Source: Thermococcus sp. 4557 (GTDB lineage: Archaea > Methanobacteriota_B > Thermococci > Thermococcales > Thermococcaceae). Taken from it: 64,000 bases of DNA. This document shows positions 11,328-44,472 of this stretch, in pieces; within the stretch, counting starts at the first letter, position 1, and every line of letters begins with the position of its first letter. The notes under the pieces are model-generated. The model did not search any database, was not told where the DNA came from, and saw only the letters and a list, made by a program, of their open reading frames with translations. The stretch is taken from contig NC_015865.1 in assembly GCF_000221185.1 (NCBI RefSeq), forward strand, positions 1,612,001-1,676,000, read 5' to 3'. Made by a program: the position numbers and the translations under genes.

Positions 11328-11995
11328 GGCGGGGCGATGGTCAGGGCATCTTCCCTCGCCGCCCTCTTAACATTTCTGACGTTTTTTGGAACTGGACTTC
11401 TCACGGTGGTTCCTTCCTTGTGGTTGGCGGCTTGGGTTCGTGATTCCTTCATGAATGGCTTTCGATAGTTGTGTTGTCCTGTAATTCCACCGTGGCTACG
11501 TTGGGTGGGTAGCTGAGGGGGGTCTTGGATTTGGCCATGGTGATGGGCTCAACATGGGTGCCATAGTTTTGGTGGTCTTGGGTTCCCTGCTTCTCGTCTT
11601 TTTCCTCCCTTGACCCTGCAAAAATTTTTTGCCGTTTTTATGTCTAAAATTGTGCATTTTGTCGGCGCTTTTTGACAGCTTCTTTTCTAAAAATATGCCC
11701 TGGGAGAGGTTTTGCAAAAATTTTGTATCGGTGGGGTTCACCCCTATTGGATGGAGCGCCCGAACAGGGCGCGACAAAACCCGAGCGCCAAGACGGCGGC
11801 GTCGGGGGGACAGGGTGCAAAGCACCCACGATGAACCCCGCCCTCCAGCTCGGGTCACAGCAATGTGCGCTCCCGAGGAAACGCCGAAAGGCGGACCCCT
11901 CGGGGGTAAGGCAGGCCCAACACCTCGACCAAACCCCGGACGGATATTTGGTACTTCCCCTCGAGGGAAGTCCCACCGGCCGTACTCCTTGCTCA
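11328..11995 (+). other. rRNA operon promoter and leader region
   Basis: This 668-bp gap between prs and 16S holds no gene I can support. From 11610 to 11705 it is AT-rich, with TATA-like runs (CTAAAAATATG near 11685), and probably holds the rRNA promoter. From about 11740 to 11995 the sequence is GC-rich and self-complementary, as in a structured pre-rRNA leader; its 11910-11945 part pairs with sequence behind 16S. A 43-codon hydrophobic reading frame at 11337-11468 (starting MVRASSLAALLTFL) is open but lacks a Shine-Dalgarno and recognised relatives. Confidence 0.5.
11910..11945 (+). other. 5' arm of the pre-16S processing stem
   Basis: Bases 11910-11926 are perfectly complementary to 13512-13528 (17 bp) and bases 11934-11945 to 13493-13504 (12 bp). 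The 7-nt interruptions on each side are compatible with a bulge-helix-bulge site, the substrate of archaeal splicing endonuclease in 16S maturation. Confidence 0.85.
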
Positions 11996-13481
<1,486 letters not shown>

Positions 13482-13732: not shown

Positions 13733-16763
<3,031 letters not shown>

Positions 16764-42710: not shown

Positions 42711-43175
42711 TTACCACTGCCTTTTTCTATCCCCCACGAAGAACTTCATGAAGCCGGAGAAGTCCTCACCGCGGAATGCCGCGTAGAGGCTCTGGGTTTC
42801 CTCCGGCGTCAGCCACTCGATGTGCTCCGGAATGCCCTCCTCGAGGAGGTAGAGTATCTCGTCGTCCTTTCTTGCCACGTCCAGGGTGTAGATCTTCTTT
42901 CCGTGCTTCCTGGCTATCTCGATCTCCCTGACGACCAGGGAAGTGAACTTGCCGACTATGGCTATCGCCACAAATATCTCGGCCTCTGGTATCAGGTGGT
43001 CGGTGGTTCTGAGGCCGTAGTCGGAGGGGATTACAAAGTTGTTGGAGCCGAGCTTTTCCTCGAGTATCTCAAGGATGGCCTTCTCGGTGTGGGTGTGGTA
43101 GAGTATCGTGGGCTCGCTCAGGTAGACGAGCGGGCCGTAAGTTTCCTTCTTCTTTTTCTTGAAGAATCCAAGCAT
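42711..43175 (-). CDS. Conserved hypothetical protein, nucleotide-fold-like
   Basis: Unrecognised 154-aa protein. It opens with a Lys-rich patch (FFKKKKKETYG), has no export signal, and contains alternating strand-helix segments (IPEAEIFVAIAIVGKFTSLV, then EIARKHGKKIYTLDVARKD) that resemble Rossmann-like nucleoside-deoxyribosyltransferase or TIR-type folds. That is only a structural guess. Its leader is occupied by a C/D box sRNA whose 3' end overlaps the Shine-Dalgarno GAGGTGG. Confidence 0.65.
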   Translation of the reverse strand: MLGFFKKKKKETYGPLVYLSEPTILYHTHTEKAILEILEEKLGSNNFVIPSDYGLRTTDHLIPEAEIFVAIAIVGKFTSLVVREIEIARKHGKKIYTLDVARKDDEILYLLEEGIPEHIEWLTPEETQSLYAAFRGEDFSGFMKFFVGDRKRQW

Positions 43176-43180
43176 GGGAC

Positions 43181-43245
43181 CACCTCAGGTGGGGATAATG
43201 TCATCATCTTGGCATCAGGAGGGATGACACTCTTCATCGGTTCGC
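43181..43245 (-). ncRNA. C/D box sRNA guiding 23S rRNA methylation
   Basis: Read on the minus strand this is C box CCGATGA (43240-43234), a guide, D' box CTGA (43218-43215), a 7-nt spacer, a perfect C' box ATGATGA (43207-43201), a 12-nt guide (43200-43189) and D box CTGA (43188-43185). The D' guide TGTCATCCCT pairs with 23S 16248-16257 (10 bp), and the D guide TTATCCCCA with 23S 16270-16278 (9 bp). The rule of the fifth base upstream of the box predicts 2'-O-methylation at 16251 and 16273. Flanking ACC and GGT could form a terminal stem. The 3' end overlaps the next gene's ribosome-binding site. Confidence 0.75.
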
Positions 43246-43275
43246 AACCTAAATTTACCCCGTTTAGGCCTTTTT

Positions 43276-43325
43276 TCGGTCAAAGGGGCATTTTCGGCGG
43301 AGTGGGCGTCATCGGTCAAAGGGGC
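43276..43325. repeat. 14-bp direct repeat, period 36
   Basis: TCGGTCAAAGGGGC occurs at 43276-43289 and again at 43312-43325. Only two copies and one 22-bp non-repeated spacer are present, so it is not a CRISPR array. The rest of the 43246-43459 gap shows no gene. Confidence 0.5.
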
Positions 43326-43459
43326 CATATTACCCCCACTTCCCTAGAGGTGGTGGAAAAAAGAGGGTTAATAAGCTTTTGTCTAAATGTCACCAACTCC
43401 CGACCCCGCCCTGAGGGACGAGGCTTTCAAAAGAAAAAATGTCAAACGCCGAATGGGCA

Positions 43460-44410
43460 CTATTGCCCCTCCCCTGCACAGAGGCGGCCCTCCTGCATGC
43501 ATCGAATTTCATCGCCGGTGGTGTACCTCAAACTCGGAAGCTCGAAGAGATATTCAAAGGGGGAGCCGAAGTAGCCGTGCAGGGAATAAAAGTGGTCCAT
43601 CTCTCCAAAGCTCTCGAACCTCCGTATCCTCGCCACGCATTCCTCCGGGGGAACGTCCCCACGCAGGGGGCAGTATCCGTCCAGCCGCACGGACTCCGAC
43701 GTCCCATCCCCTGAGGTTTTCAGACCAATCGGCGGGAACCAGTCGTAGAGCTCCCATTTGCCCTCATCGGGGTAGTATACAGTCAGGAAGGCGTGTCCGG
43801 GAACCATCGTGAGGAAGTACCTCGCCCTTATCCCGTGCTCACGGTTTATCCTGGAGATTACGGCGTACGCCACGACGTGCCAGTCATCGCAGTCCCCGCA
43901 GTGGGTCACAACGTACCTCGGGTCCTTCGTGGGGCCTCCTGCGCAGTATTTTGCCTTTTCCACCATCACCTCGTAGGCCGTCCCCCTGAGATAGAGAACG
44001 TACTGATCAGAGGGAACGTGCTTCTCATCCACCCTCCCCTTGGCCTCGGCTATTACGGAGGTCACGAAATTCTGAACGGGGGTAGAGTTCAGTATCCCGG
44101 GGAGGTCCTCCCTCGGAAAGGCGGTGTAACTCCAGTACGGGTAAACGTACGAGGTGTTCTGAACCTTGGCCAGGTGATAGTCGTAGGTATGCTCCAGAAG
44201 GCTCTCAGAAACGCTCTTGTCCACCGTACCGGCCATCCCGAGGTAAACGCCGAGGACATCGTAAACGGCCTCGATAAGATTCGTCGCAAAATCGTCCCAA
44301 GGTTCCCCCACCACCGGAATCTCCCTTAACCGTCCCGTGTTGTGGCCAACGAGACTTGTCATGAGGAAGAGCACGATCAGGGGAACCGCCGCTGCACGGT
44401 ACACTCCCAT
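43460..44410 (-). CDS. Exported transglutaminase-like cysteine protease-fold protein
   Basis: Protein of 316 aa with an N-terminal hydrophobic signal or anchor (AAAVPLIVLFLMTSLVG, residues 5-21) and a transglutaminase-like core. Seen: the nucleophile segment THCGDCDDWHVVAYAVIS, the His in PGHAFLTVYYP, and the Asp in YDWFPP. It therefore has a complete Cys-His-Asp triad and should act outside the cell, as a protease or amidase. No partner genes are evident. Its start lies just before the UPF0282 gene, transcribed the other way. Confidence 0.8.
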   Translation of the reverse strand: MGVYRAAAVPLIVLFLMTSLVGHNTGRLREIPVVGEPWDDFATNLIEAVYDVLGVYLGMAGTVDKSVSESLLEHTYDYHLAKVQNTSYVYPYWSYTAFPREDLPGILNSTPVQNFVTSVIAEAKGRVDEKHVPSDQYVLYLRGTAYEVMVEKAKYCAGGPTKDPRYVVTHCGDCDDWHVVAYAVISRINREHGIRARYFLTMVPGHAFLTVYYPDEGKWELYDWFPPIGLKTSGDGTSESVRLDGYCPLRGDVPPEECVARIRRFESFGEMDHFYSLHGYFGSPFEYLFELPSLRYTTGDEIRCMQEGRLCAGEGQ

Positions 44411-44472
44411 GGCGAATTCCGGTTACCCCAAAGGGATTTTAAGGTTTTTGCCGATGAAAAGACGGTGGTGAC

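Follow-up and report, generated by a model that had tools for sequence, protein, structure and literature searches.

The minus strand of the window (the whole 64,000-nucleotide stretch of Thermococcus sp. 4557 DNA that was analyzed) carries at positions 43183–43241 an ortholog of sR55, a described RNA family, and in this respect the locus is ordinary in kind. With a probability of roughly 0.93, it encodes the Thermococcales C/D box sRNA sR55 with two guides for predicted 2′-O-methylation of 23S rRNA. Its less ordinary aspects are the alignment of its targets with two eukaryotic methylation sites, the overlap of its 3′ end with a Shine-Dalgarno sequence and, above all, the apparent insertion of integrative elements at its 5′ end. 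The assignment as a C/D box sRNA is based upon the order of the boxes, a terminal stem, two 12-nt guides, unique best matches to rRNA, order-wide conservation, and covariation between guide and rRNA.

A search with cmscan matched Rfam family RF01307 (sR55) at 43183–43241 with a score of 70.2 bits and an E-value of 5.6e-16, well above the curated gathering cut-off of 35. The match covers the entire model, positions 1–65 of 65. It is this score that settles the identity of the locus, the complementarity to rRNA alone being supporting rather than decisive. An earlier sequence-only reading had proposed a C/D box sRNA with two rRNA guides and had named a covariance-model search as a check; the score, the order-wide conservation and the guide-target covariation all uphold the proposal. 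Of 94 Thermococcales genomes, 83 contain a match above the cut-off, whereas 21 genomes from elsewhere in the phylum and 14 control genomes contain none; judged by E-value, the family is present in 72 of 74 good Thermococcales assemblies. There is one copy in the source genome. A second Rfam RNA, the Pab19 H/ACA RNA, lies at 11756–11859 on the plus strand just upstream of the 16S gene.

The genus names employed here for relatives, such as Pyrococcus, are putative.

The guide RNA and its predicted 23S rRNA targets

The elements of the RNA and its targets are as follows.

43183–43241, minus strand: whole sR55 model (cmscan, RF01307)
43239–43241, minus strand: 5′ strand of the terminal stem, ACC, pairing with GGT at 43182–43184
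43231–43237, minus strand: C box ATGAAGA in the corrected register; RTGANGA in 72 of 74 relatives
43219–43230, minus strand: D′ guide GTGTCATCCCTC, 12 nt; guide positions 2–11 form 10 bp with 23S 16248–16257
43215–43218, minus strand: D′ box CTGA, from the sequence; CTGA, CCGA or CGGA in relatives
43208–43214, minus strand: internal D′-C′ loop TGCCAAG; 0–13 nt long among relatives
43201–43207, minus strand: C′ box ATGATGA, from the sequence; RTGANGA in relatives
43189–43200, minus strand: D guide CATTATCCCCAC, 12 nt; 9 bp with 23S 16270–16278
43185–43188, minus strand: D box CTGA, from the sequence; CTGA in 70 of 74 relatives
43182–43184, minus strand: 3′ strand of the terminal stem, GGT, from comparison of 74 sequences
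16248–16257, plus strand: 23S target of the D′ guide; predicted 2′-O-methylation at G16251 (23S nt 2520)
16270–16278, plus strand: 23S target of the D guide; predicted 2′-O-methylation at G16273 (23S nt 2542)

From 43241 to 43182 the minus strand reads ACC-G-ATGAAGA-GTGTCATCCCTC-CTGA-TGCCAAG-ATGATGA-CATTATCCCCAC-CTGA-GGT. The C, D′, C′ and D boxes thus occur in the archaeal order with sequences compatible with k-turns, and the guide preceding each of D and D′, about 12 nt long, displays rRNA complementarity that spans position 5. The D′ (CTGA), C′ (ATGATGA) and D (CTGA) boxes, as well as the 12-nt C′-D guide (43200–43189), are all present, as the sequence-only reading had noted. Its C box, CCGATGA, is indeed present and agrees with the canonical motif at five of seven positions, but a better candidate, ATGAAGA, with six of seven, is found 3 nt downstream at 43237–43231. 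The latter is preferred because it leaves a 3-bp ACC/GGT terminal stem and guides of exactly 12 nt each. Genomes in which CCGATGA is broken (CCAGTGA, CCCGTGA, CCAATGA, CCTATGA) retain RTGATGA in the shifted register. The varying base of the C box faces the U of the D box, and U, A or G are all accommodated in k-turns.

Pairing in the terminal stem is maintained as ACC/GGT in 59 of the 74 sequences, as GCC/GGT in ten, and as GCC/GGC, a double change, in one. Of the 74 sequences, 73 preserve the core of the D′ guide, GTGTCATCCC, whereas the adjacent D′-C′ loop varies in length as listed. The window copy resembles the Rfam family in its full-length match, boxes, guides and terminal stem; it differs by one base in the C box (ATGAAGA versus ATGATGA) and in having a shorter D′-C′ loop. 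Compared with the Pyrococcus copies, its D guide has a longer match to rRNA.

Both guides match the 23S rRNA exactly, starting from guide position 2 as had been read from the sequence, and each target is the best site for its guide within the 16S and 23S rRNAs. Guide position 1 is unpaired in the window copy. For a random 12-mer from the window, the probability of a match to rRNA is 0.018 for at least 10 bp and 0.060 for at least 9 bp, whereas two such matches within 25 nt of each other are expected for a random pair with P of about 4e-5, or about twice that if either order is allowed. Taken by itself, the pairing is thus only moderately unlikely. That the boxes and complementarities were assembled by chance with no RNA being made has a very low likelihood: single matches with P values of 0.02–0.06 would allow for it, but a 70-bit covariance-model match, 83 genomes and a compensatory change do not.

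The location of the sites near the peptidyl-transferase center holds for the second of them, which lies within GGGGATAAC beside A2451. The first is positioned at the 3′ strand and edge of an rRNA helix, which we take to be H88, and falls outside of the peptidyl-transferase ring. In standard numbering G16273 is E. coli G2446, since A16278 aligns with A2451 once the strain used is corrected for a length difference of 3 nt.

Guide and target coevolve. Guide position 2 and rRNA position 16248 form a T-A pair in 37 genomes and an A-T pair in 14, such that 51 of 53 are paired by one of two pair types; the two exceptions, G076 and G077, place A opposite A. The rRNA base also covaries with a second base of its hairpin, located ∼20 nt upstream (CCCCTG...CAGGG versus CCCCAG...CTGGG), and the guide therefore follows an rRNA helix. 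Both pair states occur within the Pyrococcus-like genus g3 (G012 versus seven others), from which it is argued that the paired change occurred more than once or reverted. A tree of a neighboring protein, which is a gene tree rather than a species tree, likewise requires several changes of state. This covariation comes from few lineages. Note that in G076 and G077 (L126 and L108) the 23S base is of the A type, in contrast to their g4 relatives and to their own guides, which have the other type; it looks as though the 23S rRNA of these two genomes had been replaced from another Thermococcus.

By analogy with the known C/D mechanism, sR55 would be excised from a transcript shared with the next gene, and L7Ae, Nop5 and fibrillarin would bind it at the C/D and C′/D′ k-turns. 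Both guides would then anneal to a single 31-nt stretch of the pre-23S rRNA, 16248–16278, and direct 2′-O-methylation opposite guide position 5, namely at G16251 for the D′ guide and at G16273 for the D guide. Pairing of the D′ guide with one strand of the rRNA helix, the 3′ one, probably also keeps this strand open until modification has occurred.

In yeast 25S rRNA, Gm2793 and Gm2815 are directed by snR48 and snR38, respectively (PMC5199042), and human 28S rRNA contains Gm4370 and Gm4392 (PMC11542601). A spacing of 22 nt is common to the predicted archaeal pair and to both eukaryotic pairs. In an alignment with the yeast 25S sequence, the predicted sites fall on Gm2793 and Gm2815 with no gap. 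The likeness concerns the target sites; yeast employs two separate snoRNAs, snR48 (for Gm2791 and Gm2793) and snR38 (for Gm2815), whereas the window contains one dual-guide RNA. A published methylation table has no entry for P. abyssi at either equivalent position (PMC11542601), and a search of the open-access literature did not reveal published sR55 targets, or Gm data on the two positions, for Thermococcales.

The 9-bp form of the D guide is kept in 64 of 74 relatives. In Pyrococcus and in G093 the D guide pairs over only 6–7 bp, and the second site is thus probably not universal; no convincing alternative target for the Pyrococcus guide was found in the 16S or 23S rRNA. The erosion could explain one of the two P. 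abyssi blanks, not the other. It also bears on the possibility that only the D′ guide functions, with the D guide an orphan retained through its overlap with the Shine-Dalgarno sequence of the next gene, for Pyrococcus preserves CCCCAC beside the D box and has lost the rest of the match. Such an arrangement is unlikely, however, in light of the 9-bp match TTATCCCCA in 64 of 74 sequences, which extends well beyond the region able to pair with the Shine-Dalgarno sequence, and of a target that equals a eukaryotic Gm site.

The downstream gene and the Shine-Dalgarno overlap

Two further features adjoin the 3′ end of sR55.

43180–43186, minus strand: Shine-Dalgarno sequence GAGGTGG of the next gene, complementary to the organism's own 16S 3′ end, ...GATCACCTCC
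42711–43175, minus strand: downstream gene encoding an uncharacterized protein of 154 aa, found in 84 of 94 genomes

The D box CTGA together with the following GGTG contains GAGGTG, and the Shine-Dalgarno sequence thus overlaps both the D box and the terminal stem. In 70 of 74 relatives the ATG follows the D box by 9–13 nt. The 154-aa gene occurs throughout the Thermococcales and is nearly always located directly after sR55; its protein matches no Pfam or NCBIfam family. In genus g1 the protein exists in two versions, about 54–60% and 82–100% identical to that of the window. Their placement in separate clades of the protein tree suggests a replacement of the gene downstream of sR55.

sR55 is intact in four genomes in which the next gene has moved away or been displaced (G001, G075, G079 and G084). 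In G075 (L035) an inserted flavodoxin-like gene separates the two, and the 154-aa gene retains TTGAGGTG, its Shine-Dalgarno sequence, without a D box and has its own TATA-like sequence; the distances in G079 and G084 are similar. In G001 the gene is on another contig, and sR55 lacks the Shine-Dalgarno sequence and has the terminal stem GCC/GGC. On the basis of these four genomes, sR55 is conserved for its own sake, with the overlap an added constraint.

A cis-regulatory side role for the overlap is possible. That sR55 acts mainly in cis, its leader k-turn being bound by L7Ae such that assembly of L7Ae or of the sRNP blocks translation of the 154-aa gene, is quite improbable, even though the overlap, the position of the ATG in 70 of 74 relatives, the near-perfect synteny, and a segment, CACCTGAGGTG, that could fold over the Shine-Dalgarno sequence would all accord with it. 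Some snoRNAs in 5′-UTRs of T. kodakarensis may be cis elements (PMC4247193), and 5′ overlaps lowered reporter transcription (PMC7994747). Guides for rRNA would be superfluous in a cis element, but no part of the RNA is more constrained than the D′ guide, which also covaries with rRNA, and the four genomes cited above keep sR55 intact away from the gene it would control.

The 5′ flank and probable integration within the sR55 gene

Two features at the 5′ side of sR55 are of relevance.

43242–43343, minus strand: conserved leader of ∼100 nt (model R1), absent from compact sites
43226–43241, minus strand: 5′ part of sR55, ACCGATGAAGAGTGTC, corresponding to the integration core elsewhere; 14 relatives have a displaced copy next to an integrase gene

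The leader precedes sR55 in about a third of the genomes, including that of the window, with a patchy distribution across four genera. It contains GGGATGACA-like and ACCGATGACA motifs, matches no Rfam family even at E-values up to 1, and is single copy in its own genome, with no repeats. As a structured RNA it was rejected, there being no conserved fold (consensus energy −4.2 kcal/mol; single-sequence z-scores from −3.3 to +2.2), and as a second C/D sRNA or short upstream frame likewise, the GATGA-like boxes and short frames not being consistently conserved.

The gap between the neighboring metallo-hydrolase gene and sR55 is just 59–64 nt in 15 genomes, corresponding to the empty site, and in others it ranges from 1 to 47 kb. 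The leader is found at none of 16 sites with a gap of 110 nt or less (one being of 100 nt), whereas 13 of the 30 sites with a wider gap possess it (Fisher P 0.0015, relatedness ignored). This distribution indicates that the leader was probably delivered by integrative elements. In the window itself, the 1.2 kb between 43242 and 44472 is probably inserted DNA as well; no clean sR55 fragment remains at 44411–44472. Between sR55 and the metallo-hydrolase gene lies a transglutaminase-like ORF (43460–44410, minus strand; PF01841 at 16.7 bits, below the cut-off). It is absent from the compact loci of close relatives, for example G031, and may thus possibly be inserted DNA.

In relatives the leader model also matches 12–34 kb upstream of sR55 on the same strand. 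At these distant matches the leader is followed by only the first 14–18 nt of sR55 and then by unrelated sequence. Integrase genes lie in between: G043 978905–980167, G042 372894–374240, G005 1510338–1511700 (interrupted), and G016 11918–13174. With the G042 integrase as the query, relatives were found in 16 genomes, and at 13 of the sites examined the displaced fragment ACCGATGANGAGTGTC was present with three or fewer differences. At 12 of the 13 it is located ∼190–350 nt from the integrase gene, while in G043 the integrase gene is at the other end, beside sR55. The element sequence that comes after the fragment recurs at several sites; tcctaaatcctcttttgcatgcgtttt is one example. Together with the inner G042 site and G005, there are 15 fragments in 14 genomes of four genera, and in seven (G005, G016, G022, G036, G042, G043 and G076) the fragment and an intact sR55 share a contig.

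The relatives thus provide a fragment at one junction and a restored gene at the other, an integrase at the junction, and the empty site. Ahead of the fragment, G042, G057, G054, G067 and G036 carry the promoter native to empty sites, ctaaacc(t)ttaataagtcctgcccgttagtggaagttg. The main integrase family, P0001, is weakly recognized (PHROG integrase, E-value 6e-6; no Pfam match), and P0002 better (2e-13). The core contains an inverted repeat, GATGA-NGAGTG-TCATC; such repeats resemble those that integrases use. The insertions span 12–47 kb (loci L144 in G042, L148 in G005, L164–L171, L173–L175, L180 in G016, and L181 in G043). As read from sequence, the cargo in G042, G043, G005 and G016 (L152–L160) looks like type I restriction-modification, McrBC-like, primase and Mre11/Rad50-like genes, and these four insertions resemble defense islands at the sR55 site.

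Taken from genome comparison, the sR55 gene is very probably an integration hot spot in the Thermococcales, and the leader in the window would be a relic of such an element. The elements would recombine within the first 16–20 nt of sR55, the core ACCGATGANGAGTGTC extending over the C box into the beginning of the D′ guide, with ACCGATGANGAGTGTCATCC as the proposed recombination sequence. Integration would leave a fragment at the far end and restore sR55 with an element-borne 5′ end and promoter. In the tRNA-gene attachment sites of archaeal integrases, such as those of the pT26-2 family, an RNA gene is likewise split and restored by element-borne sequence, and the integrase gene is likewise beside the junction. 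The tRNA sites, however, involve the 3′ end of the gene, whereas the sR55 site involves the 5′ part of a C/D sRNA gene, and the element must therefore bring along a new promoter and upstream region. The targets named by a review of tyrosine recombinases in archaea are tRNA genes, protein genes and intergenic sites, and neither sRNA nor snoRNA occurs as a word in its text (PMC8371274); within the open-access literature, a C/D sRNA gene as an attachment site is thus probably unreported.

Implications for the sR55 family

One archaeal RNA is predicted to guide two methylations for which yeast, at the aligned sites, uses two snoRNAs, and sR55 offers a test of what the marks beside the catalytic A do. 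Integration at its 5′ end would add C/D sRNA genes to the known targets of archaeal integrases and would account for the marked variability of the 5′ flank of sR55, which neither the gene nor its 3′ flank shares. It also predicts that the promoter of a ribosome-modifying RNA would be swapped at each arrival of an element.
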